NCBI GenBank assembly: GCA_017938285.1
Contig: JAGBBW010000052.1
Span: forward strand, 1-43,888
Origin: Lachnospiraceae bacterium
Lineage (GTDB): Bacteria > Bacillota > Clostridia > Lachnospirales > Lachnospiraceae
Reading direction: 5' to 3'
Length of the DNA: 43,888 nt
This document shows positions 141-30,813 of this stretch, in pieces. Position 1 is the stretch's first letter, and every line of letters starts with the position of its first letter. Below the pieces are notes generated by a model, which was not told where the DNA came from, ran no database searches, and worked only from the letters and a program-made list of their open reading frames with translations. The translations under genes and the position numbers were made by a program.

Positions 141-1246
141 TCAAACTTCCGGAAGAGTATAACAGCTGGATATCCACACAGCGTTCCAGAAATATATCTT
201 CTGTAATTATTATTCAGAATCTCGTACAGATAAAAAGTCTGTATAAGGATTTATGGGAGAACATTACTGGTAACAGCGATACATTGATTTATCTCGGTGG
301 AAATGAACAGTCTACCCATAAATTTGTGTCAGAGATGATGGATAAAATGACCATTGATAAGCAGACGCAGGGGCAGACAAAAGGAAGACAGGGAAGTGCT
401 TCAACGAATGATGATGTTATGGGAAGAGAACTGATGCTGCCTGGTGAAGTCCGGAAGATGAGCAGAAATAAATGTCTGGTTATCATCAATGGTAAAGATC
501 CTGTGATTGATTATAAGATCAGGACGAACCAGCATCCGCTTTGGAACTCCTTTAACCAGCTGTCCAGGAAATATAAATTTGATGGACGGTTAGAGAGACA
601 CAACAGGAATAATAAAGTAAAAATTCAGGATGGTGGGAGCGTACAGATGTATGAAAGAACAGAGCTGGAACTTTTTAAGAAGGAGGGAAAACGAATGGAG
701 GAAGAATATGAGGAAGAATACAATGTGGCCCGGACTATCGGGGAAAAGCTGCCGCAGAAACCGGAACTGCCGGTGATGACAATGAGCCTGGAAGAATTGG
801 CGGTACTGGTTGAGTCATTAGAGGAAGAGGAACCGGAATTCCCAGAGAGTACTATTGGTTTTGAAGAACTGGAATATGCGGTGGGAGATTATGCAGAGGA
901 TTGCTATTTGGAATACCCGGATGTGAACCCGGAGGAATATCCGGCAGGGGCTGTACTGGAACAGTTTGCAAAACAGCCAGAGGAAGAAATGGACGTGCAG
1001 GAGGAGCAGATGCAGGAAGATGTTGTTGAATTGAAAACAGAGGATAAGGAAGAAAAGAGAAAGCAGACGGAAGCAAGGCTTCTGATGGTGGCAAAATTAA
1101 AAGAAGAAGGCTTTTCCATGAGCCAGATACACTTATTGAAGCCGGTGATGTTGCAGCTTAGTCTGGAGCAGATTACTACTATTTTTGAGCCGGGAATGGA
1201 AGAAAACATGATAAAATCCATTCTTGACTTTATCGAAGTATCATAA
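141..1246 (+). CDS. VirD4/TraG-type type IV coupling protein, 3' exon (partial)
   Basis: C-terminal part of the hexameric inner-membrane ATPase that brings the relaxase-DNA complex to the conjugative channel. The 5' exon, with Walker A, lies beyond the intron to the left. The exon opens at the FKLPEEYNSW stretch, which in this family follows the Walker B segment (DEFAN-type). It continues with RSRNISSVIIIQN (sensor-like), then YLGGNEQSTHKFVSEMM and GRELMLPGEVRKM, all typical of Firmicute VirD4 proteins. After about residue 190 the protein has an acidic, Glu-rich extension of roughly 180 residues ending in a folded-looking tail. This extension is longer than usual and may bind substrates or partners. 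The frame is open back to 50, but bases 50-140 belong to the intron, so no internal start is proposed. Full-length protein requires RNA splicing. Confidence 0.85.
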
Positions 1247-1249
1247 AAA

Positions 1250-1287
1250 ACTAAACCAGAGTTGAGAAAAATGGTAAGATTCTCAAC
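1250..1287 (+). promoter_or_regulatory. Leader motif copy 1 with hairpin
   Basis: Just after the coupling protein stop lies a 23-base motif beginning ACTAAACCAG at 1250-1272. It matches about 18 of 23 positions of the motif shared by 11963-11985 and 19356-19378. It overlaps a perfect 8-bp inverted repeat, GTTGAGAA (1261-1268) and TTCTCAAC (1280-1287), with an 11-base loop. The hairpin could weaken read-through or act as an operator ahead of the next gene. Function is inferred only from position and recurrence. Confidence 0.4.
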
Positions 1288-1375
1288 CGGGCGTTTAACA
1301 AAAATTTTCTTTTTTGTAGTATGCTTTCCGTACTAAATAAAGAAAGGCTGGTTAAATGACCAGAAAGGTGACTGA

Positions 1376-1798
1376 ATGAAGAAGTATCGAAAATGCAGTT
1401 TTCGTAAGTACAAAAAAGAAAAAGGAAAAGAACATTGGAGAAAAATTGGTATTTTATGCGTTCTATTTGCGGTGTTGTTGTTTGCAAGTCCGGAAGTATC
1501 GGCATTTGCTTCTAATATTACACAAACAACAGCGGGACAGACGGAAGGAACATCGACAGCAGAGCCAAACTGGCTGGAATTTCAGCCAATCCTGATTATG
1601 AGGTATTTAGCTTCTTTTTTACTGGCATATGTGTCTTTTAAGGGAGCAATACAGTTGGGAAATAATATATCGGAGCTGAGTGCGGCATTAAAAAACCAGG
1701 ATGATGCTTCCAAACAGAATGCCATAAACGGAATTTTTGGTGGTGCAATACAGTTTTTTATTTCAGGTTTACTTGCAATTTTCGGAATTGCTATTTAG
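1376..1798 (+). CDS. VirB2/TrbC-like conjugative pilin candidate
   Basis: A 140-residue protein with a basic N-terminus, a hydrophobic signal segment (about residues 25-42) ending near the SAFAS stretch, a short Thr-rich linker, and two further hydrophobic segments (about 66-85 and 117-138) separated by a short polar turn with KNQDDASKQN. Signal peptide plus two-helix hairpin is the plan of VirB2/TrbC-family pilins, which form the conjugative pilus or channel subunit. Its place between the coupling protein and the VirB3-like gene supports this. The start is preceded by AAAGGTGACTGA, a usable ribosome binding site. Family assignment rests on architecture and context, since VirB2 proteins diverge strongly in sequence. 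Confidence 0.6.
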   Translation: MKKYRKCSFRKYKKEKGKEHWRKIGILCVLFAVLLFASPEVSAFASNITQTTAGQTEGTSTAEPNWLEFQPILIMRYLASFLLAYVSFKGAIQLGNNISELSAALKNQDDASKQNAINGIFGGAIQFFISGLLAIFGIAI

Positions 1799-1808
1799 GT
1801 GGTGTGTG

Positions 1809-2201
1809 ATGAATGAGATATATGTGAAAGGAACACTGTTAAATACGCCACGGTATGACATAATTCCGATAACTTCGGACGCTATTGTACGGGTACTGGT
1901 TTCGGTGGAGGGAACTGTTCTGCCGGTGGTATGCTGCAATGAAATGGCATGTTCGGCAAGAGAACTTTTACTGGAAGCTGACATGGAGACGGAGGTGTTT
2001 TTTGCAGGAAGAATAAAAGGTAATTCGTATACGGACGCAGTAGGTTCACAGAATTATCTCTTATATCTGATAGCAGACAGGGTGGCTTTGTCAGAAGCAG
2101 ATCTGCGCAATGAACCGGGAAAGAAATATACACCTTTGCAGTATGACAGACTTCCTTTTAGTATTGCTGATCTGGAGGATATTCTGATGTATATGGAGTA
2201 A
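1809..2201 (+). CDS. OB-fold, single-stranded DNA-binding-like protein
   Basis: A 130-residue protein starting at the ATG at 1809, with GGTGGTGTG just upstream as ribosome binding site. The frame is open further left but lacks a better start. The pattern YVKGTLLNTPRYDIIP, then alternating hydrophobic strands (RVLVSVEG, LPVVCCNEM), then EVFFAGRIKGNSYTD, then YLLYLIADRVAL, resembles the five-strand OB fold of SSB/PriB-like proteins, with the GRI-G-SYTD turn also seen in the clear SSB encoded at 36817. It may bind transferred single strands or act as an accessory factor of the transfer machinery. The C-terminus lacks the acidic DDxPF tip of housekeeping SSB. Confidence 0.5.
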   Translation: MNEIYVKGTLLNTPRYDIIPITSDAIVRVLVSVEGTVLPVVCCNEMACSARELLLEADMETEVFFAGRIKGNSYTDAVGSQNYLLYLIADRVALSEADLRNEPGKKYTPLQYDRLPFSIADLEDILMYME

Positions 2202-2205
2202 AGAA

Positions 2206-2598
2206 ATGGGACTTACAATTGATATTTGCAACGATGTGGAGCAGTATGAAGAAAGTGTAGTGGCCGGATTTAACTTAAAAAAGACATTGTGTATAGGTGC
2301 TGCGGTTATTGTTGGAGCTGCAGGTATGGCATTATTTCATTTTGCATTCCATATCAATATTCTGGTTTCGGTATATATGATGATGCCGCTGGTTGCCCCG
2401 ATTATTATCAAAGGATTTTACAGAGAAGGGAAAGGCTCTCTTTTGAAGGATATTCTGGGCATGGGAAAAAAGAGTAAACCGTTGGTTTTTCGTTCCACGG
2501 AAACAGCACCGGTAGAAACAGTTCAAGATGAGAAGAAGGAGAGGAGCGGATGGGAAAAGGTAAGAATACGTATCATGAAAAACAACAGAAAAGTATAG
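2206..2598 (+). CDS. PrgI/VirB3-like membrane protein
   Basis: A 130-residue protein. A short N-terminal polar part (IDICNDVEQYEESVVAGFNLKK) is followed by two transmembrane helices (about residues 28-47 and 50-68) and a basic cytoplasmic tail. The EYxExxxxGFxxxKT pattern just before the first helix matches the PrgI family of Gram-positive conjugation systems, the counterpart of VirB3, which usually works with VirB4. It begins five bases after the previous stop. Its 3' end overlaps the start of the CpaF-like gene by 49 bases, suggesting translational coupling. In most Firmicute elements PrgI sits next to VirB4; here VirB4 is about 19 kb away, so the cluster has been split or rearranged. Confidence 0.6.
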   Translation: MGLTIDICNDVEQYEESVVAGFNLKKTLCIGAAVIVGAAGMALFHFAFHINILVSVYMMMPLVAPIIIKGFYREGKGSLLKDILGMGKKSKPLVFRSTETAPVETVQDEKKERSGWEKVRIRIMKNNRKV

Positions 2599-3737
2599 AC
2601 AAAGAAATTCTCTCCAGAGTGGTTGATTATTTTATCAATCAGCAGGGATATTTACTTATGCAGATGAATGCAAACAGGCTGGATGAAGGACTTAGAAATG
2701 TGATAAAGAATAAAGCAGAAGCAGAGTTTCAGCGTCTGGGGATCTGTCAGGAAAATGAGTTAGAGGCATATCTTGATGTGTTTGAAAAATATATCTGGGG
2801 ATATTATTATCTGGATTCCCTGATTCGTGACAAAGATATTTCAGACATCAAGTGTTATGAGTATAACCGGATTACGGCAAAACGTAATGGAGAGCTGGAA
2901 CTGACAGATGTATCTTTTGCAGATGAAGAGGACTACCGGCGTTTTGTGCAGATGGTTGTAACGAAAAACGAGAAGAATTTATCTGCGGTTAATGCGAAAG
3001 TAGTGTTTACGGATGTCTATAGTGATGCGGATTTTATTCTCCGGTTTAACGTTATGTCCGGGTGGCTTCAAACGTCCAGTATGCCTTTTATACATATCAG
3101 GAAAGACCCTAAGAAAAAGCTGTATCTGGATGACCTGGTAAAGCTTGGTTTTATGACGCAGGAGCAGAGAAAGTATCTGGCTGGAGCTGCAAAAACAGCA
3201 AAAGGGATTTATGTGACCGGTAAAGGAAGTGTAGGTAAAACCAGGCTGACCAATGCATTGCTGGAGGAAATTCCAAAAAAGAAAAGCGGACTTGTTGTTG
3301 CAGAAAGCGATGAATTGTTTTCAGAGCATCCTCATTTTCTGTTTCAGCATACCATTGAAAATAATGGTGAAGGGAAAGTGAGCTATGATTTAAAAACACT
3401 TGCAACTAATGGTCTGCTGATTGATTTGGATTATTTTATTATTAGCGAAATAAAAGGGGATGAGGCAGCAGCGTTTTCACTTGCTTCTTATACAGGGCAT
3501 ACCTGCTGGGCAACCGGGCATGGAGCTTCTGCCAGAGATGGAATTGAAAAACTGGCAGACTATATCCAAAGGGCAACAGGAGATTCCGTTGAAAAGTGCT
3601 ATAAAGTACTATCCAAGATGGAGGTTGTGGTATATCTGGAGGATTTCAGAATTAAAGAGATTGTGGAAGTCAAAGGATTTGACAAGGACCATCTTGTATT
3701 CCAGGATATTTTCGGAGGTGCAGCGGAATGGAAGTAA
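2550..3737 (+). CDS. CpaF/TadA-type secretion ATPase (VirB11 superfamily)
   Basis: A 395-residue hexameric traffic ATPase that would power assembly of a Tad/Flp-type pilus. Residues 1-200 form the N-terminal and linker domains. Walker A is GKGSVGKT near residues 224-231, where most relatives have GxxGSGKT. An acidic box near ESDE (about 255) is followed by a Walker B-like segment DLDYFIISEIKGDEA (about 292-306), then HTCWATGHGAS (about 316-326), the equivalent of the His-box HDGSLxTxHA. The usual RxRPD before Walker B is changed here, so this is a divergent subfamily. The start is supported by GGAGAGG upstream and lies inside the preceding gene. It is followed directly by TadB- and TadC-like genes, which points to Tad assembly more than to a plain conjugation VirB11. 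Confidence 0.85.
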   Translation: MGKGKNTYHEKQQKSIDKEILSRVVDYFINQQGYLLMQMNANRLDEGLRNVIKNKAEAEFQRLGICQENELEAYLDVFEKYIWGYYYLDSLIRDKDISDIKCYEYNRITAKRNGELELTDVSFADEEDYRRFVQMVVTKNEKNLSAVNAKVVFTDVYSDADFILRFNVMSGWLQTSSMPFIHIRKDPKKKLYLDDLVKLGFMTQEQRKYLAGAAKTAKGIYVTGKGSVGKTRLTNALLEEIPKKKSGLVVAESDELFSEHPHFLFQHTIENNGEGKVSYDLKTLATNGLLIDLDYFIISEIKGDEAAAFSLASYTGHTCWATGHGASARDGIEKLADYIQRATGDSVEKCYKVLSKMEVVVYLEDFRIKEIVEVKGFDKDHLVFQDIFGGAAEWK

Positions 3738-4735
3738 TACTGCACATTGTATTAAGCAGATATTTTATTGGAACGGTCTTGTTTTTGGTCTGTTTTTTTA
3801 TGGCGTTATCCATTATCTTCAGGGCAGAAAAGTACAGGGTACTGGACAGGACAGCAAAGCATGTTGCAGCAACATGGGAAAAATTTCTGCACTATGTCAA
3901 TGAAACAACGGAAAAACGTATTCGTGAAGAGGAACGTTTACAAAAAGAGCAGGGAAACAGGGAAAAGAAACATTTCCTGTATCGTCTGGATGAAGCTCTG
4001 CTGCAGACCGGATTAAAAAAGAAGGTTCCGTTTTTAACAGTGGAGCTGACGCTTGTGTTGCTATTTTTATTCCTTTTATGCGTAATGGTTGTGACGGCTG
4101 AAATAGCTGACAGCCTTTTGATTGGTATTCTGGCTGTGGGGATATCATTTATGATTCTGAAAGAAGTGGTTCAAATGATTATCCGGAGACGGCAGAAGCA
4201 GGTGGAAGACAATATTATTCAGTTTGCCAATCTGATAGAAAATTACGCAAGAACTTCCGATGATATTGTGCAGATACTACGGAAGATTTCGATTTATCTG
4301 GAAGAGCCACTGAAGACTGCTGTAGAAGATTGTTATATGGAGGCATATACAACCGGGGATTTTTCAACAGCGTGTGCGCATTTGGACGCCGGCATTGGAA
4401 ACCGGTATTTGGCAGACATGCTGACAAATATAGAGAGCTGCAGCAGACACAGGGCAAATTATGAGGAGGTGATTCGTGGAAATAAAGAAATTATACGAAA
4501 GTATCTGGCAGAACGTGATGTGCAAAGGGAAATAGCCCGGAATGCCCGGGTGGAAATTGTAATACTGTTGATTATGGGTGGAATTGTAATGTACAGTTTT
4601 CAGGGAGTAATTCCGGAAGGAATGCAGCTGTTTTCCGGGGGAAGCTTATTGTCAAAAGTTTTTACCGGAGTGATTGGCATTGTAGTGTTTATCAGTATCC
4701 GTGTAATGATGTCGATTGGTGATAAGGAGGTGTAA
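3728..4735 (+). CDS. TadB-like type II secretion F-domain platform protein
   Basis: A 335-residue inner-membrane platform protein that would seat the CpaF ATPase. It has an N-terminal transmembrane helix (about residues 10-31), a charged coiled-coil-like region (35-100), a helix pair near 103-145, a cytoplasmic four-helix T2SS F domain (about 150-270, with ENYARTSDDIVQIL), and C-terminal helices (about 275-330). This order matches TadB. It overlaps the end of the ATPase gene by 10 bases, with GGAGGTG ahead of the start. The pair with the following gene is the usual TadB-TadC arrangement. Confidence 0.75.
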   Translation: MEVILHIVLSRYFIGTVLFLVCFFMALSIIFRAEKYRVLDRTAKHVAATWEKFLHYVNETTEKRIREEERLQKEQGNREKKHFLYRLDEALLQTGLKKKVPFLTVELTLVLLFLFLLCVMVVTAEIADSLLIGILAVGISFMILKEVVQMIIRRRQKQVEDNIIQFANLIENYARTSDDIVQILRKISIYLEEPLKTAVEDCYMEAYTTGDFSTACAHLDAGIGNRYLADMLTNIESCSRHRANYEEVIRGNKEIIRKYLAERDVQREIARNARVEIVILLIMGGIVMYSFQGVIPEGMQLFSGGSLLSKVFTGVIGIVVFISIRVMMSIGDKEV

Positions 4736-4736
4736 C

Positions 4737-5567
4737 GTGAATGTAATCAGGTACATAACCATGCTTATTATATGTGGAGCATATTTAGGTGTAATATTGG
4801 AACTTATGAAGCGTGCACACACGGTAAAGATTGACTGGGGTGCACAGCTGGACTGGCTTATGGAGTCTTCTGGAAATCGTTTAAAGCGGAATAAGAAAAA
4901 ATATGAGCAAAGAAAAATATATCTGTCCCAGATAGGTGTAAACTATTTTGCAAAACGTCTGGTTCTTCCGGAAGAGTATTTGTTAGCCAGGCTGACACTG
5001 GCAGTTATTGTGGCAGCTGCCGGAACTCTTTTTTTGGGAGCAGTATCCGGTTTGTTTGCAGGGGTTCTGGGGTTTCTTTTGCCGGATGTGATTCTACAGA
5101 AAATGAATGAAAAAAATAATAAGCAGATGCTGAAGGATATCAAAAGTATTTATGATACGATTCAGATTAAGACCCAGGGAGGAATGTTTCTGACGGAGGC
5201 TATTGCGGAGTGTTACAGAAATGTTACGAATGGACGGTTGAAAAGAGCGTTGTATGAAATGTCTGGTGAACTGATAGTAAATCATGATATGGAAGCAACC
5301 ATTGATGAGTTTAATCTGAAATTTAAAAATAAGTACATTGATAATCTGTGTATTATTTTGAAACAGGCACTGGATTCCGGAAAGACAGCGGAAATTATGG
5401 AGAGTGTCCAGGATCAGATGACCGACATGCAGGATGTAATAAACCTGCAGGTACGGACCAAAACAGAAAAAAAGGTTTTCTTTGTTGAAGTGGTGATTTT
5501 TGTAACAGTTGTTTTGCTGGGAATAGGAATGGCTGCCATTTCAGCAATCAGTACAATTAGTTTATAA
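4737..5567 (+). CDS. TadC-like type II secretion F-domain platform protein
   Basis: A 276-residue second platform protein. I chose the GTG at 4737 because AAGGAGG at 4724-4730 sits six bases upstream; an ATG 21 bases earlier would lie before this site, inside the previous gene. Hydrophobic segments are near residues 5-22, 90-118 and 250-272. Between them is the F domain with IKSIYDTIQIKTQGGMFLTEAI, a typical TadC stretch. It follows the TadB-like gene by one base after its stop, so the two are almost certainly co-transcribed and may form a heteromeric platform. Confidence 0.78.
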   Translation: MNVIRYITMLIICGAYLGVILELMKRAHTVKIDWGAQLDWLMESSGNRLKRNKKKYEQRKIYLSQIGVNYFAKRLVLPEEYLLARLTLAVIVAAAGTLFLGAVSGLFAGVLGFLLPDVILQKMNEKNNKQMLKDIKSIYDTIQIKTQGGMFLTEAIAECYRNVTNGRLKRALYEMSGELIVNHDMEATIDEFNLKFKNKYIDNLCIILKQALDSGKTAEIMESVQDQMTDMQDVINLQVRTKTEKKVFFVEVVIFVTVVLLGIGMAAISAISTISL

Positions 5568-5586
5568 AACAGGAGGAATAACAAAA

Positions 5587-5844
5587 ATGGTGAAATTTGC
5601 AAAGGTAACAGGTGAAAAGGTAAACAACGCATATTTATTTCTGGGCAGGAAGCTGAGAAATTATGTAACAGAAAAAAAGAAAGAAGGTGGATTTGAAACT
5701 TTTATCGTGGTCTTGCTGATGATTGCAATCTGTGCAGGCTTGTGCCTGTATTTTAAGGACCAGATTACCCTGTTCATCAAGTCGCTGTTTGAAGAACTGA
5801 AAAGCGATGTATTAACTGACTTTATGGCAAAACCGGTTGCGTAA
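5587..5844 (+). CDS. Flp1-like type IVb pilin candidate
   Basis: An 85-residue small protein that is the likely major fibre subunit of the Tad-like system. A long basic leader (residues 1-34, ending KKKEGG) is followed by a single hydrophobic helix starting FETFIVVLLMIAIC (36-57) and a short tail. A GG just before F-E-T-F resembles a prepilin peptidase site, with cleavage after Gly35, as in Flp1-like proteins. The Glu falls at +2, not the usual +5, so cleavage is uncertain. AGGAGG lies upstream of the ATG. It follows TadC directly, as pilin or pseudopilin genes often do. No prepilin peptidase gene is visible in the window. Confidence 0.7.
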   Translation: MVKFAKVTGEKVNNAYLFLGRKLRNYVTEKKKEGGFETFIVVLLMIAICAGLCLYFKDQITLFIKSLFEELKSDVLTDFMAKPVA

Positions 5845-5852
5845 CAAAAAAG

Positions 5853-6323
5853 ATGAAGCATCGGATGAGGAGTAAAAAAGAAGGTGCCTATGATTTTGTC
5901 AGTGCGTTGCTGGTACTTGTTGTATGTATTCTGGCTGTCTACTGTCTGACAGTGATGAATGTGGATACCAATAAAGCACTGGATAGTCAGAATCATATTT
6001 CGAGCCTGATGCGGAGCTATCTTGTGAAGATGGAAACCGGAGGCAGCTTAAGCAGTGGTGACGTGGACAAGCTCATAGATGATTTAGAGTTATATGGTAT
6101 GACAGAGATTCATTTGTATGGAAATTTTGATTCAGGCATTACACGGACTGCAATAGTTGCAAATTATGGACCTGCCGGTTATGGAGAACCGGTAAGCCTG
6201 CGAATCGTTGGAGTCCTGACAGTTGAAAGTATGGAAGAAGATCCGGGTGGATTTTTTGCTCTGTCCCGTGGCTTCCGGGAACTGAAAGTGGATATCAGTC
6301 AGAAAGGAATTTCGGTGCGATGA
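5853..6323 (+). CDS. TadE/TadF-like pseudopilin candidate
   Basis: A 156-residue protein. A short basic leader (MKHRMRSKKEGAYDF) is followed by a hydrophobic helix (about residues 15-36) and a soluble domain of about 115 residues with beta-rich sequence (LRIVGVLTVES). The G-A-Y-D-F sequence before the helix recalls class III prepilin leaders. TadE/TadF proteins of this plan are minor subunits in Tad systems. The ribosome binding site is weak (purines before the ATG), consistent with coupling to the preceding gene. It overlaps the next gene by four bases (ATGA). Confidence 0.55.
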   Translation: MKHRMRSKKEGAYDFVSALLVLVVCILAVYCLTVMNVDTNKALDSQNHISSLMRSYLVKMETGGSLSSGDVDKLIDDLELYGMTEIHLYGNFDSGITRTAIVANYGPAGYGEPVSLRIVGVLTVESMEEDPGGFFALSRGFRELKVDISQKGISVR

Positions 6324-6880
6324 AAAAACGCTGGAAAAAAGAAGGAACGGTAGCGGTCATTCCGATTCTTGTTTTATTTGTTTTACTGGTAGTTGCACTA
6401 TTCTATATTATGACGCATAAGGCAAAAGTGATTCAGATTTATGACTGGCTGGAGGATACCGTGGTTGTCTCCGGCCAGGCAGTCTGTGTTCCGGACAGAT
6501 ATATTCCCGGAGCGTATCACTGGAACAGGCAGGATGTAGTATATGATACCGGAGCAATGAATAAGGCAGTTCTGTATGAAACTGATCCGGCGGCTGCAAC
6601 AGAACATGCAGCAGAACTTGCTTATAAGCGTTTTACGGAGCTGCTGGATTATAATCTTCCGGAAACCGCAGTGCAGTATCAGATAGAAACATTCATACTG
6701 ACAAATGTCATTAGTGGAACTGCCTATCAGTATGATTTTATGAAAAAACAGGGAGAAGAGACGTCTACGATGGAATTGGAATCTTTTCTGGAAATAGGGG
6801 TAAAAGTGGTTTTGGAACTTCCTCTTTTTGGCAGTACAACATGGAAAAAAGAAACAGTAGTAATACTGGTGGAGGATTGA
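6320..6880 (+). CDS. Second pseudopilin-like/TadE-F-type membrane protein
   Basis: A 186-residue protein with a basic N-terminus (MKKRWKKEGTVAVIPIL), a single transmembrane helix (about 10-31), and an extracellular domain of about 150 residues. The KKEGTVAVIPIL start fits a pseudopilin-like leader (Gly9 before the hydrophobic run), as in TadE-like proteins. The soluble part shows no motif I recognise. Start and previous stop overlap as ATGA, indicating translational coupling, and the gene belongs to the same operon. Confidence 0.5.
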   Translation: MKKRWKKEGTVAVIPILVLFVLLVVALFYIMTHKAKVIQIYDWLEDTVVVSGQAVCVPDRYIPGAYHWNRQDVVYDTGAMNKAVLYETDPAAATEHAAELAYKRFTELLDYNLPETAVQYQIETFILTNVISGTAYQYDFMKKQGEETSTMELESFLEIGVKVVLELPLFGSTTWKKETVVILVED

Positions 6881-6881
6881 A

Positions 6882-7511
6882 ATGAAGAAATGGAAAGAAA
6901 AATTGCCGGTTCTGGTAATTTCTTTAATATTTGGTATTGCCGGATTTGCAGGGCTGTTATGGATGGAACGGCAGGCATTAAAGGATCTGGAACAGAGACA
7001 GGTTGTGGTGTGTATGGAAAGTTGTCCGGCAGGAGAACTGATTACAGCTGAAAATGTAGAAAAGTACTTTTCTGTTGTGGATGTGTCGGAACGCCTGGCA
7101 GCGGACACAACAGTGTCCAGCCTGGACGAACTGGTAGGATATTATCCGAGCAGGGTAATTTCAACCGGAGAAATTGTGTATGTGTCCATGCTGAACCTGG
7201 ACAATCCAACGGCAAATCTGGAACATCCTGTGGAGATATCTGTGACGGCAGAAATTGATTATGCAGTAGCCGGAAGAATCCGCAAAGGAGATGTAGTAAA
7301 TGTTTATGTGAAAGACAGCAGGAGCGAAACGTATGAACTGATACTGGAGCAGGTAGTGGTTCAGAATGTATATGACGCTACAGCAACGGTAATCAGTAAT
7401 GGTGACAATTCGGCACTGGCGTCCATGTTTACTTTCTGTGTGGAGTCTTCTGTGGCAGAGTCACTGGGAAAATTGTATACCGGAGATGTTGCATTGTTGA
7501 AACTGAGGTGA
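6882..7511 (+). CDS. CpaB/RcpC-like SAF-domain protein
   Basis: A 209-residue protein with an N-terminal membrane anchor (about 8-27) followed by an SAF-type domain: VVVCMESCPAGELITAENVEKYFSVVDV, then VGYYPSRVISTGEIVYVSML. A second half (VEISVTAEIDYAVAGRIRKGDVVNVYV) matches the RcpC/CpaB C-terminal domain. CpaB proteins are periplasmic or cell-wall components of Tad pilus assembly. This completes a minimal Gram-positive Tad set here: ATPase, two platforms, pilin, pseudopilins, CpaB. GGAGG precedes the ATG, which lies one base after the previous stop. Confidence 0.75.
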   Translation: MKKWKEKLPVLVISLIFGIAGFAGLLWMERQALKDLEQRQVVVCMESCPAGELITAENVEKYFSVVDVSERLAADTTVSSLDELVGYYPSRVISTGEIVYVSMLNLDNPTANLEHPVEISVTAEIDYAVAGRIRKGDVVNVYVKDSRSETYELILEQVVVQNVYDATATVISNGDNSALASMFTFCVESSVAESLGKLYTGDVALLKLR

Positions 7512-7686: not shown

Positions 7687-8037
7687 ATGAGAAGAAAACG
7701 ACTGACTGGCAGGGGAGAACTGCGGAACCGGATACATAAAGCAATGGAAAGAATAAAGAGTCATGTCTGGTTTCGGAAGTTTATTCTCAGCAAAAGGCTG
7801 GGGAGACTTATATATGTACTGGCTGTTGCAGCGGAACTGACAGACTGGTATATTATTCTCTTTATTGGTTATGGTATTACTGTTGTGGATGATGTCTGTA
7901 TGGGAATCTGCCTGGTGCTGCTTCTTTTACTGGCAGTCCGGAGTATGGCGGGGACAATGTTGTTTCCAGATTTGGAGAAGCCAGACGTGCCAGAACAGGA
8001 TGAGTTTGTAAAACAACAAAATAAAACAAGAGCCTGA
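7687..8037 (+). CDS. Small two-helix membrane protein, last gene of the Tad-like operon
   Basis: A 116-residue protein with a basic N-terminal 40 residues, two hydrophobic segments (about 43-66 and 68-92) and an acidic Gln-rich tail. GGAGTAAGG lies upstream of the ATG. It is the last co-directional gene before a hairpin that overlaps its stop codon and a 550-base gap. I do not recognise a family. Its position suggests a structural or regulatory part of the pilus/transfer module. Confidence 0.55.
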   Translation: MRRKRLTGRGELRNRIHKAMERIKSHVWFRKFILSKRLGRLIYVLAVAAELTDWYIILFIGYGITVVDDVCMGICLVLLLLLAVRSMAGTMLFPDLEKPDVPEQDEFVKQQNKTRA

Positions 8038-8137: not shown

Positions 8138-8232
8138 GTTAATGCCTATCCTGTCTGCTACACAGGATAGGCGGTGTCCGTAAGGACATTTAACCATCGG
8201 GAGCATCCACCTTTGGAGTGGGTGCTTTCTTT
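8138..8232 (+). ncRNA. Candidate structured RNA: three-way junction plus terminator
   Basis: The sequence predicts a compact fold. GTTAA (8138-8142) pairs with TTAAC (8190-8194) and encloses two hairpins. The first has a perfect 11-bp stem (8144-8154 with 8162-8172); the second is TGTCC-GTAA-GGACA (8175-8188) with a GNRA-type tetraloop. A terminator-like hairpin follows: AGCATCCAC (8202-8210) with GTGGGTGCT (8218-8226), then TTCTTT. The stretch lies in a 550-base gene-free interval between the Tad-like operon and a defence cassette. It could be a small RNA, a riboswitch-like leader or an inserted element end. I do not recognise a known RNA family. Confidence 0.45.
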
Positions 8233-8589: not shown

Positions 8590-9837
8590 ATGCTACTTGA
8601 ATTTTCTTGCTCCAATCACAAGTCCATTCGGGAAAAAGTATTATTTTCTGCGTTGGCTGGTAGTGATACACAGTATGTGGAGAAAACAAAAGAGTTTGAA
8701 GGATATAACGTACTTAAATCGGCAGTGATTTATGGTGCAAATGGTTCAGGAAAGAGTAATTTTATTGATGCAATTTCTTTTGTGAAAAAGTTAGTAATAA
8801 AGAGTATTAATTATCAGCCAGGACAGGGAATCCGTCAGATTCCGCATAAGCTGGATGGGTATGATACGGAAAGTGTTTATCGGATTCAATTTGTTACCGG
8901 TGATATAAGATATTTATTCGGATTTTCATTAAAAAATATGCTGATAACAGAAGAATATCTGTATTATTTTCCAAATGGCCGCCAGGTAAAAATATATGAA
9001 AGGGAGCAGGAGGATTTTCAAACAGGAAACAGATTTAAAGGAAAATTGTCTACTTGTAAAGATGTCTTAAAGCCGAACCGGTTGCTGTTGTCTTGTGCAG
9101 CTAATTTTAGTTCGGTAAAAGAAATAGAGCAGGCGTATAGGTTTTTTAATGATGAACTTGTCATATATGGTTCAGAGAATCAGGAGAATTGGCTGCAATA
9201 TTCATTGTATCAGATGAATACGAATGAAAAGCTAAAGGAAACGGTAGTTTTATTCATGCAAAGTTTGGGTACGGACATAAAAGGACTGGATGTGACAATT
9301 AAACAGAAAAAGGTGGAAGATGTTGAACTTCCCGATTTTCTTTCTGATGAATTCAAAAAGAAGATATTGCAAGGGAGTATTGAGTCGATAAATGCCAAGG
9401 TTATTTATGAGACATTTGAAACAGATTTACTTCAGGAAGAATCAACAGGTATCAAGAAGCTGTTCGGATTACTGTGTCCGCTACTGGACATTATTATCAA
9501 TGGAAAAGTGCTTATTTGTGATGAATTGGAGGCAGGCTTACATGAATCTTTGGTTTTTGGTCTGGTAAAACTTTTTGTGGAGATGGAAACTCAGAAATTC
9601 CCACAGATATTCTTTACCACACATGAGACTGGTTTGCTGAATCTGGACTTATTTAGAAGAGATCAAATTTGGTTTACGGAGATGAAAGGTATGGAACGTT
9701 CTACTGATTTGTACTCGTTGGCAGAAATAAAGAATGTACGTAAAGATGACAATTTTGGAAAAGGTTATATTTCGGGAAAATATGGGGCGATTCCGATGTT
9801 AAATATTGATTTTGCCAATATAGTTTCCAGAATGTAG
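8590..9837 (+). CDS. AAA15-family (COG1106-like, RloA-like) ATPase, defence-type
   Basis: A 415-residue ABC/SMC-like ATPase. Walker A GANGSGKS is at residues 49-56, a long middle insert follows, STGIKKLFGL is a degenerate signature segment, Walker B is VLICDELEAGLHE (about 307-319), and the switch His lies in FFTTHETGL (about 343-351). The C-terminal FGKGYISGKYGAIPML block is characteristic of RloA-like AAA15 proteins, which commonly act as sensor or regulator subunits of two-gene phage-defence systems. AGAGGAG precedes the ATG. The next gene, starting within about 10 bases, encodes a HEPN RNase, the likely effector. Its compact two-gene form, inserted between transfer modules, suggests cargo that protects the host or the element. 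Confidence 0.82.
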   Translation: MLLEFSCSNHKSIREKVLFSALAGSDTQYVEKTKEFEGYNVLKSAVIYGANGSGKSNFIDAISFVKKLVIKSINYQPGQGIRQIPHKLDGYDTESVYRIQFVTGDIRYLFGFSLKNMLITEEYLYYFPNGRQVKIYEREQEDFQTGNRFKGKLSTCKDVLKPNRLLLSCAANFSSVKEIEQAYRFFNDELVIYGSENQENWLQYSLYQMNTNEKLKETVVLFMQSLGTDIKGLDVTIKQKKVEDVELPDFLSDEFKKKILQGSIESINAKVIYETFETDLLQEESTGIKKLFGLLCPLLDIIINGKVLICDELEAGLHESLVFGLVKLFVEMETQKFPQIFFTTHETGLLNLDLFRRDQIWFTEMKGMERSTDLYSLAEIKNVRKDDNFGKGYISGKYGAIPMLNIDFANIVSRM

Positions 9838-9846
9838 TGGGGTGTG

Positions 9847-10551
9847 ATGATGATAGAGAGAAATTTAGATCTAAATAATCGTATTGAAGATGTTAGACCC
9901 CAACAGACGGTTGTACAACCTGTCCAGTTTGAACTGAGAGATATTAAGGCTCATTTTGATGAAAGTTTAAATGCTATAAAGAATCAATATGCAGTTGCGG
10001 ATTCCTTAATGGCAGAAGGGAAAGTTGAGGATTGTAAGAATATTTGGCGTTCACAGGTTGTATTTATAGAAGGCATTTTGGATTTTTATCTTCATGAAAT
10101 GAGTAAGTATGGATTATACAAAATGTTTAAAGGAGAATGGTCAAAGAGTGAGCAATATAAATCTCTTCAGATTCCTATTTTGAAAGTTGAAGAGGGGATT
10201 GCTGCGGCAGAATCAAAAGAATGGTTTTTTGAATATTTGAATGATAGATTCAGCAGAGATGTATTTCTTTCTGATGAGAGTATGAGAAAACAGTTAAATT
10301 TAATCGGGATTGAATTTGGAAAGGCAATGTCTATTGCTTTTCCAAAGGACACAATGAATAAGTCCGATAGAGAAGGTGCATATATTGTAAGGGAACTGTT
10401 TAAACGGAGGAACGCAATTGCCCACCAGATAGACAGGGATCATGCTTCTGCACAGCAAAATGACATAACGAAGGAGTATGTAGAAGAATGTGCCAGTCAG
10501 GTGACAGCTATTGTAGAAGCTGTACATAGTATTGCTGTGGATAAAGGATGA
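9847..10551 (+). CDS. HEPN-domain RNase candidate (RiboL-PSP-HEPN-like), partner of the AAA15 ATPase
   Basis: A 234-residue mostly helical protein. The HEPN signature Rx4-6H is seen in RRNAIAHQID, with Arg near residue 187 and His near 193. It is preceded by an FxxRLFxxR-like helix (IVRELFKRRN) and an earlier NQY-WRSQVVFIEGILDFYLHEMSKYGL region typical of RiboL-PSP/HEPN proteins. HEPN domains cut RNA and serve as toxins in abortive-infection systems; the AAA15 partner probably controls it. Starts are possible at GTG 9844, ATG 9847 or ATG 9850; the GGGGTG site at about 9839-9843 best suits the last two. A terminator follows at 10565-10607. Confidence 0.75.
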   Translation: MMIERNLDLNNRIEDVRPQQTVVQPVQFELRDIKAHFDESLNAIKNQYAVADSLMAEGKVEDCKNIWRSQVVFIEGILDFYLHEMSKYGLYKMFKGEWSKSEQYKSLQIPILKVEEGIAAAESKEWFFEYLNDRFSRDVFLSDESMRKQLNLIGIEFGKAMSIAFPKDTMNKSDREGAYIVRELFKRRNAIAHQIDRDHASAQQNDITKEYVEECASQVTAIVEAVHSIAVDKG

Positions 10552-10564
10552 TATCATAAAAATA

Positions 10565-10607
10565 GAAGAACCAGTCAGCTGACGAGTTGAATGGTTCCTC
10601 TTTTTTT
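10565..10607 (+). terminator. Rho-independent terminator after the AAA15-HEPN pair
   Basis: GAAGAACCA (10565-10573) pairs, with one mismatch, with TGGTTCCTC (10592-10600), followed by seven T residues. It also lies downstream of the convergent Uma2 gene. Confidence 0.75.
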
Positions 10608-10658
10608 GCCTTTGAATGGTACTGAATTATTTAAAGACAGGAAACAATAGTGCAAGGA

Positions 10659-11231
10659 TTAAATGTTCAACATATCTGAAATTCCAGAAAAGTTGATAAG
10701 CAAATCTTCATAAATGTTTACCTTGATAACAGAATCAAAGGAGTATTGAATAGTGAGCATATTACCCTCAAAGTAATTTACAGTAACTGTTTTTCGTCTT
10801 GGATCCACAATCCAATATTCCCGTACCCCTGCATTTTTATAATGGTACAGCTTACGAATGTAATCATCAGCCGGATTACCAGGAGAAACAATTTCGATGA
10901 TGAAATCGGGGGCGCCATTGCACCTTTTGCCATCCAGCTTGTCTTTATCACAGATAACCATGATGTCAGGCTGAACGATTGTCAGGGGGCTGTCAGATAA
11001 TTTTATATCGAATGGAGCAGTGAGTAATTGGCATGAGCCTTTCCTGCTTTTGATGTAATTGTAAATGATGTTTGACAGCTCCAAGGAGATTGTCTGGTGT
11101 TCCTGTGATGGACTGGCCATATCATAAATAATACCATCGAAGACTTCAACCCTTTTATCATTTGGAAGAGTTTCGTATTGCTCCAGAGTGATTAACTGTA
11201 GTTGTGGTTGTAATGCTGGCATAGTATTCAC
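10659..11231 (-). CDS. Uma2-family PD-(D/E)XK endonuclease-like protein (DUF820)
   Basis: A 190-residue protein read on the minus strand. It contains LITLEQYETLP, RVEVFDGIIYDMASPSQEHQ, then QPDIMVICDKDK, GAPDFIIEIVSPGN and KLYHYKNAGVREYWIVDP, the standard Uma2 blocks. These form a PD-(D/E)XK fold with Asp in QPD and Glu in IEI as likely metal ligands. Cellular role is unknown in general; Uma2 proteins are widespread in mobile and expanded families. It is convergent with the AAA15-HEPN operon and lies downstream of an XRE regulator on the same strand, separated by about 30 bases, so the two are probably co-transcribed. Confidence 0.82.
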   Translation of the reverse strand: MNTMPALQPQLQLITLEQYETLPNDKRVEVFDGIIYDMASPSQEHQTISLELSNIIYNYIKSRKGSCQLLTAPFDIKLSDSPLTIVQPDIMVICDKDKLDGKRCNGAPDFIIEIVSPGNPADDYIRKLYHYKNAGVREYWIVDPRRKTVTVNYFEGNMLTIQYSFDSVIKVNIYEDLLINFSGISDMLNI

Positions 11232-11483: not shown

Positions 11484-12077
11484 AGTGCAAATCCTCCACT
11501 TTTATTTCTTTTAATGTAATTATAACATATTTAAAAGAAAAGTAAACAAAATCTTTAGAAAAATAAAGAAAAGATATTGACATATAAAGAAAAAATTGAT
11601 AGAATATATTTAGAAACATAAAGAAAAAAGAAAAGAAAGTAAAGAATAATTTTAGAAACAGAATGGTAATGAGAGGAGACAGGAGTACTGAGAGCAGGAA
11701 TAAAACATAGCGATGGAAAAACGAATGAAGTATACGAAAAATAGTGTACATAGATGAAAATAAATGGCAACCGGAATTCTTCTGGAAGGGAACAGAAGAC
11801 AGTAAAAAAAGGAAGAAAAAGCAGCTGAAACACAGGAAAAACTTGAAAAAATGTGAAAAATATGTTATAATAAATGTAGTAAAAGAACTATATTTAGACA
11901 AAAAAAGGATACATAATTACGCCCTGCCAGGGTGGAAAACTTTTTTTTCAAAAAATTAAAAAACTAAACTACAGTTGAACAAATTGTACCGGGAAGTTGT
12001 TACAATGGTGCCGTAAATGGCACATTGACAACTGAATATTGATTTTCTCGGCAAGTAAAGATAAGGGAGGACACGAA
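11484..12077 (+). other. A-rich, largely homopurine intergenic region
   Basis: About 590 bases without a convincing gene. From roughly 11540 to 11860 the plus strand is strongly purine-biased (repeated GAAAAGAAAG-type words), which creates artificial open frames on the minus strand. A weak GC hairpin (GCCCTGCCAGGG, 11922-11933) precedes a run of eight T at 11941-11948. Then come leader motif copy 2 and a GTGCC-gtaaat-GGCAC hairpin (12008-12023). The ribosome binding site GGGAGG for the next gene is at 12065-12070. Confidence 0.5.
11963..11985 (+). promoter_or_regulatory. Leader motif copy 2
   Basis: ACTAAACTACAG followed by TTGAACAAATT, identical over 23 bases to 19356-19378 and about 78 percent matched at 1250-1272. 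In this copy and the one at 19356 a T-run and an A-rich stretch precede it, so the similarity extends to about 44 bases with small changes. It precedes the surface-protein gene at 12078. Role is unknown; a promoter or operator shared by the transfer operons is the natural guess. Confidence 0.5.
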
Positions 12078-13559
12078 ATGAGCAAGAAACCAATTGACAA
12101 AGATAAACTTATTGTCAGAGCATGCTACATTGGAATGGCAACTATTGCGATTATGATAACCGGGCTGTTTATAACTTATGACACCTGGAGTCCGAAGTTC
12201 CGGGAAGAATGGTACGGGAGACCGATGGATGTAACGGTTACACCAACGGCAGCGGGTGTACCGGAGGAAACAGCAGCACCAACTCTGACCGAAAAACCTA
12301 CAGAACTGCCGGCTGCTCCTACAGAGCCAGCAGAAACTGCAGCACCGACAGAGCCTGTAGTGACGGAAGCACCTGCAGAAACAGTTGCACCGGAAGTCAC
12401 CGAAAAACCGGAGGTAACAGTAATTCCTGATGGAACAGAGAATGAAGAACCTGTTCTGACATCTGTACCAACCCCTAGTCCTATGCCTACGGCTACAAGT
12501 ACGCCTGTACCAACTACAGTTCCGACTCCGGCGGTGACAGGTAGCAATCTTATTGTTAGTGTACAGATGGGAGAGAATGTCTGGTATGATTATTATGAAG
12601 ATGGAACCATGATAGTACGTGGAACAGGTGCAACATGGGATCTTCCATATGAAGCAGGAGCATGGGTCTATGCAAACGAGTATGATATTCCTAAATTCTA
12701 CGACGCTAACGGATTTGAAATGGGTATTGTCTACACGGTAGATAATATCGTTATTTCTGAGGGGATTACAAGAGTGGGTGATTATGCTTTTGCCTGTTTT
12801 GGGGAAACTAAGAAGATTGTAATTCCTGATAGCCTTGAAGAAGTTGGAACATATGCATTTTATCGTATCGGATGTGCATACTATAGCAAGGTCAGTACTG
12901 TGGAATGGGTAAATTTGCATCCGGAAAGACTGAAAGCGGAAGTGAACTCATTTACAGGGGCAAAAGGTTTGGAATCCATGGAAGGGATAAGTGCTTATAT
13001 GGTAACACCAACACCGACACCGACTCCATTACCGACAGCAACGCCAACCCCAACGCCTATTCCTGATCCAGATAATCCAAGGCTGTTACATACAGAACCG
13101 ATGGGTGATGATGTTGTCTATGAGTTCTGGGATAACGGATATCTTTATGTAAAGGGTACCGGAAAGATTAAGGATAATCCGGAAATCTATCTGTGGCGTA
13201 ATATTCCAAGTGATGTAAGGAAACAGATGAAATATTATGTTGTTGAAGAAGGAATTACTAAATTAGGAAGTAATTGTATATGTTCGCCGATAGAAGAGTA
13301 TTGGTTCCCGGAATCTTTGACGAGTCTTGAAACAAATCTTGCGAGTCTTGGCTGTGTGGATTTGTGTATTGGCATGGGTGAAGTTATTCATATGTATTAT
13401 GAAGGAAAGCCTGTAACAGTAAAACGTATAGGTGATAGATATGTTACAATAAATGGACATACTAGTACTCGTAATACAGTATCTTTTATGGATGTCTGGG
13501 AGACATTATCTGGTGAGAAAACTGCAGAAGAGAATGGATTAGAGATTACTTGGGAATAA
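12078..13559 (+). CDS. Membrane-anchored BspA-like surface protein with Pro/Thr linkers
   Basis: A 493-residue protein. I chose the ATG at 12078, eight bases after GGGAGG; an in-frame TTG upstream has no such site. An N-terminal signal anchor (about residues 12-34, with no clear cleavage site) is followed by a long Thr/Pro/Glu/Ala-rich stalk (about 50-155). Two related modules come next: first ENVWYDYYEDGTMIVRGTGA, second DDVVYEFWDNGYLYVKGTGK, each continuing into EGIT-G leucine-rich (LRR_5/BspA-like) strands. They are separated by a second TPTPTPTP linker (about 312-330). The design is a surface-exposed stalk with duplicated binding heads. It sits between transfer modules and may act in contact with recipient cells or in exclusion; this is inference. 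Confidence 0.75.
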   Translation: MSKKPIDKDKLIVRACYIGMATIAIMITGLFITYDTWSPKFREEWYGRPMDVTVTPTAAGVPEETAAPTLTEKPTELPAAPTEPAETAAPTEPVVTEAPAETVAPEVTEKPEVTVIPDGTENEEPVLTSVPTPSPMPTATSTPVPTTVPTPAVTGSNLIVSVQMGENVWYDYYEDGTMIVRGTGATWDLPYEAGAWVYANEYDIPKFYDANGFEMGIVYTVDNIVISEGITRVGDYAFACFGETKKIVIPDSLEEVGTYAFYRIGCAYYSKVSTVEWVNLHPERLKAEVNSFTGAKGLESMEGISAYMVTPTPTPTPLPTATPTPTPIPDPDNPRLLHTEPMGDDVVYEFWDNGYLYVKGTGKIKDNPEIYLWRNIPSDVRKQMKYYVVEEGITKLGSNCICSPIEEYWFPESLTSLETNLASLGCVDLCIGMGEVIHMYYEGKPVTVKRIGDRYVTINGHTSTRNTVSFMDVWETLSGEKTAEENGLEITWE

Positions 13560-13691: not shown

Positions 13692-16600
13692 ATGAAGACA
13701 ATAAAACAAAAAGCAAGAAGCTGGCTGGTAGTAGTTCTGATTTATTCACTACTGGTTGGACTTCTTACCCCTTTAATGGGAATACTGGAAGAACCTGTGA
13801 CAGCAGAAGCGGCAGTATCAGTCCAGATGGCGGATTGTCCGCATGGAGGAGGACGACAGGAAATTGGCTGGATGGGGTGTACGGGATGTATGGACCCAAA
13901 AGGTTCTGGAAGAGAGTGGTTTTATATAGGACATGATTTATTGGATGAATATCCAAAAACAGAAGAACCTTTAGGAGTCCGAGGGGAAGTTTATGACTTT
14001 GGTGCCAGTAACGTGTCCGGAGGTTCTGGATTGAATTCCAGGGAAGAAGGATATGCTTTAGTTGATGGAATTCCCCTTGTGAAAAAGGTTTATTACCGTT
14101 GTTTTAACTGTGGTGTCTGTACCAAGTGGGATGAGGATGAAATCTGCTACATCGAATATCTGGATCCGGTTACCAAGGCAGTGAAAGAAACCGAAGAAGT
14201 CAACATGGACAACATTTCCACCGGCTACGTTCCCATCCGCTGGTGTGATGCGTGTGGCCCGAAACTTTACGCCATGGGGTATAAAACAAAGAATGTCTGC
14301 TATACAGAAGCCAAATGGAACCAGTACCATCTTCCAAAAACTTATTCTTTTACTGTAACAGCAAAAGAAGGTGGTACGGTATCATTGAACGGAGGAGACT
14401 TTACGGCAGAGGATACCGGAGAGTTTGCTGCACAGACTTCTGTAATAGTAAAAGCTGAAGCGGAGGAAGGCTGGGTATTTGAACACTGGGAAGATGGGGA
14501 CGGAAGGGAACTGGCTTCCGGAGAAACCGCCTACTCCTTCCGTATGCCGGAAAAAGATTATACCATTTATGCGTATTTTTCAAGGGAAGTCAAGCAGCAA
14601 TATGAACTGACCGTAATCGCCGGTACCGGAGGCCGTGTGGATGGTGACAGCGGGAAATATTATGCCGGTGATGAGATTGTTATTAATGCCTATGCGGAGG
14701 AGAATTACAAGTTTCTGGAATGGACAGGTTATACGGAGATAGAAGGAAGCGAAGAAACTACAGTTACCTTTCTTATGCCTGCCCAGGATGTTACGGTAAC
14801 AGCAAATTTTTATCCGGAGAATACAGTACCATCGGCCACCCCGACACCGACCAGCACACCGACACCGACCCCAACGCTGGCTCCGGAGGTTTCGCCGACA
14901 CCAACCAGTACCCCGATACCAACCAGCACTCCTGCACCGACACCGCAGCCTTCCAATCAGGAGAATGTAACGGAAAATTATGAGTACTGGTTTACTACGG
15001 ACATGGGCTATACCATGGACTGGGTTGCTGGAAACAGTGATTATTACCTGGCGGCATACCAGGGCTCTGACCGGGGAGGAATACTTCCATCAGCAACCGC
15101 AACCAAAAGAAGCAGGAACTATGAAAAAGGAACGGATGCGCAGGGAAATTTGTGGTATTTCATTAAAGATACAGAGAATGGGGTAAAAACCGCAGAATGG
15201 GTTCATCCTGCGGTCTATGATGGATTTGATGTAAATACCGACCAGGTCAGATATATTACGGAACTGGTTTTCCCGTCCGTGATTACGGACAGTTCAGGAA
15301 CGGAATATACGGTGGTAAGTATTGGCGGTGGAACCGGAAAGTATCATGCGCTGGATGACAATAATGATTCGAATTCACAAACAACGTACTATAACTATGG
15401 TTATGCCTCCGGTTCCTATTCCTATGACAAGGAAACGGAAGGGACGTCCACATCGACATATAAGGCTACAAGGCAGAATTATGTATATGGTGTGCTTGGA
15501 AACGGCTACATAGAAAGTTATGGAAAAAATGAGAAGACATACAATACAACCGGTGGCGGGGAAGAACAGATATATTACAGAAATTACCATGTGTATAATA
15601 CAACGCTGAAAAGTATTACGATTCCTGATACGGTGACAGCCGTGAACAGCTATGCCTTTTTGTATTGTCAGGCACTGGAGGAAATCCATGGTGGAGCCGG
15701 TCTTGAGACGATTGGAGCCTCTGCATTTGAGGCAGGAGAACGGATATATTTACAATTATGTGACAGTTATACGAACTACTTTGATGATGATGTGTATGTC
15801 CGGATTGACTATTATTTTTATAATGGGGATTGTAAACGGATGTACTATGAGGATGAGAGCGGAAATATCCATTACACCTGTAGTGACAGTGACGAACACC
15901 GGTACTGTCTCAATGGTCAGGAGGAAAATACACCGGTGATGGAAAACTGCAGGAAGGCTTCGTATCTGACAACAGTACCTATGGACCTGCCAGTGTTTCC
16001 GGTTCTGGAGAAGATAGACCGTAAGGCTTTCGCAAGGAGAGCCAATCTGAATAATGTGGTACTTGGCAGCGAAGTAAATACAATCGGGGCAGGAGCATTT
16101 TATAAATGTATGCTGGATTCCATTACGATACCGTCAATCAGTATTACGGTAAAAGAACAGCCAACAGTCTGCGAGGATTATGAAACCCTGGGTACCAATG
16201 GCACAGGAGAGAACCGGACGATTATTTATACTGTTCCAGGGGCAGAAATCATCAATGAATACGGACGTATCCATACAGCATATTACAGGCTGAAATGTGG
16301 ATATAACATTTATTATGTGCCAAATGGACCGGAGGACGATACTTATGTCCAGGTATCGGATGTTGAATTTTATCATGGGGATTATGTCTGGATGCAGCAG
16401 TTCCGCCGGACAGTATATGGGGGCGACAGACCTTTTGTAGCAGTCGAGAGTGACGGTTCCGTGTGGTACAATGCGGTACGGATAGGAAATATGGGAGAGT
16501 TTGATTATTGTGTTTTGTCTTTTCCAGAGTATTCTTATGAGTATGATTATTCTTCTGGAACGCTTTCAAAGAATTATGAAGGTGACGTTTTCATACTGAA

Positions 16601-30778: not shown

Positions 30779-30785
30779 GTTGGAA

Positions 30786-30813
30786 AGCATCCATTTTAGA
30801 GTGGATGTTTTTT
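30786..30813 (+). terminator. Terminator after the AAA-nuclease pair
   Basis: CATCCA (30788-30793) pairs with TGGATG (30802-30807), extended by flanking A-T and G-U pairs, then TTTTTT. Palindrome copy 2 begins right after it. Confidence 0.75.

Follow-up and report, generated by a model that had tools for sequence, protein, structure and literature searches.

The transfer region of an integrative and conjugative element (ICE) from a Lachnospiraceae bacterium (assembly GCA_017938285.1, contig JAGBBW010000052.1) carries genes of a Gram-positive type IV secretion system (T4SS) that run directly into genes for a Tad pilus, and this join recurs, with the two gene sets interleaved, in elements of five other genera. 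Judging from sequence, we favour with modest confidence the reading that the element makes its own Tad filament for mating-pair formation. The window, i.e. the whole stretch of 43,888 nucleotides that was analysed, makes up all of contig C30 of the host genome (G000) and is the right part of the ICE. How Gram-positive donors capture their recipients is poorly known, and the interleaved T4SS–Tad family offers a concrete candidate for a mating fibre in monoderms.

Starting exactly at base 141, where a group II intron has ended at base 140, the forward strand (which also carries the intron end, the hairpin, the surface proteins, VirB4N, VirB4, VirB6, the one-TM and HD-GYP proteins and the integrase described below) encodes the second exon of the split VirD4 coupling protein (141–1246; TraG-D_C, 1.8e-21), a VirB2-like small membrane protein (1376–1798), a small OB/SSB-like protein (1812–2201), PrgI/VirB3 (2206–2598; PF12666, 1.6e-9), a TadA/CpaF ATPase (2550–3737), TadB (3728–4735), TadC (4716–5567), a candidate Flp pilin (5587–5844), two pseudopilins (5853–6323 and 6320–6880) and a CpaB/RcpC-like SAF protein (6882–7511). 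Most of these genes overlap or almost abut, the gaps from PrgI to CpaB being −49, −10, −20, +19, +8, −4 and +1 bases, and purine-rich stretches resembling ribosome binding sites precede most of them. A preliminary description of this DNA had reported transfer genes running into a Tad set in just this manner, as well as VirB4 and VirB6 genes further on in the same direction; both statements hold. The VirB4 ATPase (21417–23825; P-loop_TraG, 3.7e-15) and VirB6 (23838–24758; five transmembrane (TM) segments and a profile match to the VirB6 found ahead of PrgI elsewhere) lie 14 kb beyond CpaB, so that the Tad row sits between PrgI and VirB4, with VirB6 after VirB4. The G+C content of the Tad block (about 0.40) is close to that of the T4SS block (0.42–0.43), while two AT-rich cargo stretches stand at 0.32–0.36. 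The PrgI and TadA frames share 49 bases on one contig, an overlap that, together with the recurrence of the junction elsewhere, rules out a chimeric assembly.

Proteins were called from Pfam and NCBIfam models, our own profiles shared with relatives, HHalign and TM pattern. The ATPase matches PF00437 above its cut-off (4.9e-13), has an intact P-loop (Walker A, GKGSVGKT) and scores 86.8 bits with the NCBIfam TadA model (TIGR03819) vs 63.3 bits with the VirB11 model, both below the curated cut-offs. The preliminary description had named a CpaF-type ATPase and remarked that known Gram-positive conjugative systems usually lack VirB11; the protein is nearer to TadA than to VirB11, and an identity as VirB11 is unsupported. 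TadB, with four TM segments, and pseudopilin 1, with one N-terminal TM segment after KKEG, match no Pfam model and were called from shared profiles and TM pattern, the profile of the latter matching the same position in relatives. TadC scores slightly below the T2SSF cut-off (1e-4) and also matches the shared profiles. Pseudopilin 2 was called from its place, which is that of its counterpart in relatives, and its single N-terminal TM segment after KKEG; it gave no profile match, and although both pseudopilins have the right size, place and TM pattern, neither matched a TadE model. The Flp candidate matches Flp1_like (PF16982) at 2.2e-6, below the cut-off, and its profile matches its positional counterparts in five stand-alone Tad loci; its putative signal before the TM segment, KKEGGFETF, is without the E5–Y6 that is usual in the Flp prepilin motif. 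For CpaB, SAF lies above the cut-off (2.7e-4), RcpC (4.2e-4) and TIGR03177 (5.8e-11) below theirs. Upstream of PrgI, the VirB2-like call comes from single-sequence matches (1e-5 to 9e-5) to the same-place protein in six other loci and from TM pattern. The gene previously described as encoding an OB fold is indeed present, but the fold is a weak call (SSB profile, E 3e-3; HHalign, 15%).

The left edge of the window lies in a group II intron that interrupts virD4 and whose 3′ end (domains V–VI; RF00029, 59.1 bits) is at 53–140. Contig C41 carries the 5′ end, terminating in a group II intron start (group-II D1 match), and VirD4 is divided between the two contigs, with residues 9–322 on C41 and 323–547 on C30 (numbered as in the homologue of genome G252), which is why we infer C41 and C30 to be neighbours in the genome. 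A 531-aa relaxase on C41 matches PF03432 (1.3e-30) and is of the MobP type by NCBIfam, below the cut-off. At the other end, a Tn916-type integrase (37622–38869; PF00589, 3.5e-22; PF02920, 1.4e-17) marks the right end of the ICE and adjoins host genes. Since a relaxase, a coupling protein, the T4SS proteins VirB4, VirB6 and PrgI, and an integrase are all present across C41 and the window, the element is an ICE. Another copy of this group II intron end starts contig C143 (1–160), where a different VirD4-like or ATPase gene follows.

To place the row among relatives, TadA was searched at three levels. Two of 4 genomes of the genus had a match (1e-20); the 299 family genomes yielded 18 places, spread over 17 of them (1e-30), and the 392 genomes of the order 28 places, spread over 22 (1e-35). 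Neighbourhoods were read with profiles built from the window proteins; at the order level this covered 21 of the 28 places, those in G594, G565, G535, G570, G503, G629 and G630 being counted by their TadA match. Elements in five other genera (G103, G632, G605, G622 and G448; hereafter sister elements) each carry all 17 profiled genes on one strand, in the order relaxase, a second TadA (TadA2), peptidase-like protein, surface protein, Flp-like protein, VirB4N (resembling the VirB4 N-terminal domain), VirB4, VirD4, VirB6, PrgI, TadA1, one-TM protein, TadB, TadC, pseudopilin 1, pseudopilin 2 and CpaB. Because the 17 profiles were made from these same five elements, the presence of the genes is partly by construction, their order is not. 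T4SS and Tad genes thus alternate, and PrgI is directly followed by TadA in all five, as it is in the window; this recurrence means that the PrgI–TadA junction is more than chance. The preliminary description had proposed looking for conserved synteny in relatives and had named, as evidence to the contrary, a Tad set that consistently stands apart from the transfer genes, which is not what the relatives display.

Within the sister rows, extra genes are interspersed, most in G448 and G632, TadB of G103 is split into two frames, and gene length varies most for the surface protein. The relaxase matches PF03432 in two elements and TadC exceeds its Pfam cut-off where scanned (T2SSF at 1.5e-9 in one), while the G103 TadA1 (best model TadA) and RcpC (1.6e-5) lie below their cut-offs and TadB matches T2SSF weakly (0.004). 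The Flp-like and peptidase-like labels come from size, TM pattern and motif: the peptidase-like protein, which stands after TadA2, has several TM segments and a GxGDSD motif, and no Pfam or NCBIfam model matched those scanned. Partial sister rows, extending to a contig end, were found in G300 (of the window's own genus), G197 and G050. In a further sister-type element (G507, contig C23; L193, 12704–20000, and L194), TadA2 lies 20 bases before VirB4N and the one-TM protein that otherwise follows TadA1 is kept (3e-90); no TadA1, TadB, TadC or CpaB was found on its 60 kb, and no TadA1 in its genome. When VirB4 was the query instead, the sister type appeared in 2 of the 299 family genomes (G103 and G197), both with TadA2, TadA1 being found in G103 alone. 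A profile search with TadA2 gave one match at 1e-60 among 391 class-level genomes, a genome contig search with a single protein gave none, as did a viral contig search, and a genome contig search with alignment A1 returned at least two Tad loci, without T4SS genes.

The core Tad proteins of these elements diverge much as the T4SS does, which holds less for the outer ones. Across the five sister elements, mean identities on the Tad side are 71% for TadA2, 65% for pseudopilin 1, 63% for TadA1 and 57% each for TadB and TadC, with 71% for Flp in the three of five elements measured; on the T4SS side they are 70% for VirD4, 69% for VirB4, 68% for VirB6, 56% for PrgI, 45% for the relaxase and 35% for VirB4N. 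That core Tad behaves like T4SS follows from the correlation with VirB4 identity, which reaches r 0.92 for TadA2 (21 pairs, seven elements) and for both pseudopilins, 0.88 for TadA1, 0.86 for TadC and 0.85 for TadB, compared with 0.96 for PrgI, 0.93 for VirD4, 0.87 for VirB6 and 0.66 for the relaxase. In a tree of TadA, TadA1 (5 rows) and TadA2 (9 rows) form two clades, each with 100/100 support; the window protein falls without resolution inside a 35-row clade, leaving a recent capture from a known donor unsupported. A VirB4 tree, with G507 scored as Tad-positive and the second element of the host genome as Tad-negative, clusters the Tad-bearing elements (4 label changes vs a shuffled mean of 11.3; 0 of 500 shuffles as low), with the caveats that most Tad-positive rows came from TadA searches and that a long-branch warning was raised. 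A single origin of all Tad-bearing elements is unsupported, as this tree needs four label changes (bootstrap 4–4).

A third layout, VirB4 followed by TadA, TadB, TadC and CpaB, was seen in two loci of the Vallitalea type: a Vallitalea plasmid (PrgI, VirB4, TadA, TadB, TadC, CpaB) and G466, whose genus is probably Vallitalea (VirD4, VirB4, TadA, TadB, TadC, CpaB), each with a short gene that looks Flp-like by eye. As a control, 30 VirB4 loci were read, the 10 nearest and 20 chosen among long contigs. VirB6, PrgI and VirB4 follow one another in that order in 30 of 30, PrgI usually being the last gene before VirB4 or VirB4N. Two control loci (G252 and G224) have a strong TadA match within about 20 kb of VirB4, where about 0.16 would be expected by chance in 30 × 40 kb (p about 0.012); contig ends truncated the loci of G083 and G012, and two weak TadA matches at 2–3e-4 were scored as none. 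Both positives carry a small module of a TadA-like ATPase, whose best model is VirB11 (below the cut-off), and one TadB/TadC-like protein (HHalign, 95% to TadC and 82% to TadB). Because the same module occurs in other genomic settings, these two are doubtful as further Tad-bearing cases and were not counted. In G127, the module stands 23 kb upstream of VirB4, just beyond the stretch searched.

Taken together, these data lead us to propose that the ICE transfer region may combine a Gram-positive T4SS with a Tad (type IVc) filament machine of its own. Filament assembly is favoured because the window ATPase is nearer to TadA, matches the profile of TadA1 and is encoded alongside platform proteins, a pilin, pseudopilins and CpaB; that the fibre helps the element to reach new cells is suggested by the fixed order in which T4SS and Tad sets are interleaved in relatives. 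One transcript would run from virD4 to about base 8230; a host A24 peptidase would cut the prepilins; and TadA, with TadB and TadC, would assemble Flp into a fibre whose tip or surface would bear the pseudopilins and perhaps also the 1867-aa repeat adhesin. The fibre would draw donor and recipient together, a role of conjugative pili elsewhere that would here be played in a monoderm, and VirD4, VirB4, VirB6 and PrgI would move the DNA. A mating fibre had already been suggested in the preliminary description; it is still the best reading, strengthened by synteny and co-inheritance, but its function is a prediction from genes and the combination itself has appeared in print.

Several observations weigh against a Tad filament for mating. 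The Tad set had been called complete, which overstates it: Pfam scans of 45 window proteins matched neither a prepilin peptidase nor CpaE (two A24 peptidase genes lie elsewhere in the host genome), nor a VirB1-type cell-wall hydrolase domain. The window-type layout was found once. Only two of the five sister rows (G103 and G632) have an integrase profile match nearby, for which reason the sister elements are called ICE-like here, and in the two scanned neither the Flp-like nor the peptidase-like protein matched an informative Pfam model. The assemblies of G300, G197, G050 and G507, all with TadA2, gave no TadA1 match beyond a 39% fragment at a contig end in G197, such that the pilus half may be absent from them or unassembled. 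Parts of the Tad side are less conserved (pseudopilin 2, 51%; CpaB, 42%; peptidase-like protein, 32%) or follow VirB4 less closely (CpaB, r 0.71; Flp, 0.63; peptidase-like protein, 0.57). Strong TadA is missing within about 20 kb in 28 of the 30 control VirB4 loci, and the module of G252 and G224 is elsewhere also seen at a distance from VirB4 or on a different contig, making these cases ambiguous. Finally, at 11 of the 18 family TadA places, the DNA fetched, some of it in short contigs, holds a Tad locus and no T4SS gene.

These stand-alone loci bear on a different explanation, namely that the ICE took up a chromosomal Tad adhesion locus as cargo for colonising host surfaces, unrelated to transfer, which we regard as rather unlikely. 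TadA and TadB are present in all 11, TadC in all but G170 (whose contig ends first) and CpaB in ten; the window TadA shares 35–48% identity with its counterparts in eight Tad loci that have no transfer genes; and a large repeat protein like that of the window stands downstream of CpaB in seven of the stand-alone loci (6 kb on in G116), a resemblance that may be inflated since the protein is repeat-rich. They thus share TadA, TadB, TadC and mostly CpaB with the window, often with the large repeat protein, and differ in having no transfer genes on the DNA fetched. The locus of G110 has an integrase 8 kb downstream, G102 and G013 carry TadA without TadB and TadC, and at the order level G605 (contig C16), G585, G488 and G333 have Tad loci without T4SS genes, TadA standing alone on contig C21 of G605. 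An adhesin role has likewise been discussed for a plasmid-borne tad locus of Cutibacterium in the excerpted report (PMC5696575). However, mere cargo sits poorly with the 49-base overlap of PrgI and TadA, with the junction and interleaving in five other elements, and with a Tad G+C content that resembles the T4SS and differs from the other cargo.

Alternatively, the TadA ATPase might power the T4SS itself, in assembly or in coupling to VirB4, with the pilin genes being secondary. The sister TadA2, among the best conserved Tad proteins and tracking VirB4 as noted above, speaks for this, as does G507, where TadA2 adjoins VirB4N and the pilus genes named above were not found; among the elements read, it is the strongest pointer to a possible VirB11-like role for the sister TadA2, and it may equally be a decaying one. 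Yet the window is without TadA2, its single TadA fits the TadA1 profile better than that of TadA2 (6e-86 vs 3e-61), the TadA model outscores that of VirB11, and TadB, TadC and pilins follow, which together make this role quite improbable for the window. We hold it for unlikely, if somewhat less so, that both functions are joined in a chimeric monoderm machine, in which a Tad filament would work in DNA transfer (through mate contact or as a channel extension) and the sister TadA2 would serve as the VirB11 of the T4SS; if true, this would break with the rule by which VirB11 is missing from Gram-positive systems. That recombination merely left decaying, non-working Tad genes in the ICE, as the want of a peptidase in the window, the intron in virD4 and the low-scoring pilin matches might indicate, seems very improbable given that every Tad frame is open, that Walker A is intact and that the sets are conserved in five genera. 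Moreover, a group II intron is able to splice out of the message.

A T4SS and a Tad set on Gram-positive elements are already in print from Sulfobacillus and Cutibacterium, so that the present elements, for which no description was found in the open-access literature searched, are a variant. As excerpted, the Sulfobacillus report describes plasmids pL15 and pY0017 and a plasmid-like or ICE region of Kr1 with a T4SS as well as TadA and TadB/TadC-like genes (PMC6803676). The likeness extends to a relaxase, TraG-like, VirB4-like and TrsB/TrsL proteins and a lytic transglycosylase; the lineage is another one, and the excerpt, compared by description, mentions neither an Flp nor a CpaB gene, nor an interleaved order (PMC6803676). 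On linear plasmids of Cutibacterium acnes, conjugation genes (FtsK type, VirB4, TcpC) lie upstream of a tad locus whose pilin was detected in the surface fraction, with appendages seen by electron microscopy, according to the same excerpt as above (PMC5696575). There, the transfer genes are of the FtsK/TcpC type and the host is an actinobacterium, again by description (PMC5696575). R64/IncI and PAPI-1 likewise bring a type IV filament of their own to DNA transfer, one that the excerpted source gives as essential for PAPI-1 and helpful in liquid for IncI, in diderm hosts and with another filament class and another T4SS (PMC12857230). In pLS20, one gene is labelled virB11 (PMC11730352); the TadA profile had no match at 1e-3 on 49 of its 66 kb. 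For the discovery of more such elements, PrgI adjoining TadA, and TadA2 between a relaxase and a peptidase-like gene, are useful search signatures.

Beyond CpaB, the row closes with a small two-TM protein (7687–8037; open reading frame and TM pattern), followed by a terminator-like hairpin of 12 pairs with a T run (8199–8229), one of 14 such sites in the stretch vs 6.4 expected. Between 8056 and 8229, a perfect TTGACA-17-TATAAT is followed by this strong hairpin 115 bases on, possibly forming a leader or attenuator by its sequence; promoter-like sites in the stretch are at chance level (37 vs 34). Then come a low-G+C AAA/HEPN stretch, two Pfam-called surface proteins, of 506 aa with LRR_5 (12039–13559) and of 1867 aa with LRR_5 and Listeria–Bacteroides repeats (13692–19295), a pentapeptide protein, VirB4N (20311–21426), VirB4, VirB6, a one-TM protein (24769–25833) and an HD-GYP protein. 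Other ICEs have NlpC/P60 proteins of the VirB1 type, which the one-TM protein partly resembles (HHalign, 88.7% over 76 columns), with no hydrolase domain matched. The AT-rich cargo comprises an AAA and HEPN pair and a Uma2 nuclease-like gene at 8590–11231, and AAA, Shedu-like (weak), zeta toxin-like and PHP genes at 28945–32435, possibly defence or toxin–antitoxin modules.

VirB4N resembles the N-terminal part of VirB4 without the ATPase half and stands ahead of VirB4 in the window, G252, G083 and the sister elements. HHalign relates the window type, aligned with the G252 copy, to VirB4 at 98.4% over 332 columns and the sister type at 99.1%, vs 0.3% for the two types with each other; VirB4N might replace an outer VirB4 ring. 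The HD-GYP-type phosphohydrolase (25800–26408; HD_5, 1.5e-23; HHERLDGTGYP) sits in the transfer region, making a link to c-di-GMP possible; HD proteins near TadA in Vallitalea and G252 are without the strict HD-GYP motif.

The small filament module, made up of a TadA/VirB11-like ATPase, a single TadB/TadC-like protein and short pilin-like genes, recurs within the family and was found at 12 strong places in 26 genomes, often away from VirB4; examples are G252 (L090, 11151–13932), G127 (L230), G282 (L231), G176 (L232) and G083 (L233). The host genome itself holds a second T4SS on contig C16 (L217, L219, L220), with VirB6, VirB4, VirD4 and TadE/F-like genes, and contig C116 (L216, L221) carries A24, CpaB, CpaE-like, TadA, TadB, TadC and Flp-like genes. 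The ends of C16 and C116 look by eye like one insertion sequence, and the two contigs may form one further T4SS–Tad element.

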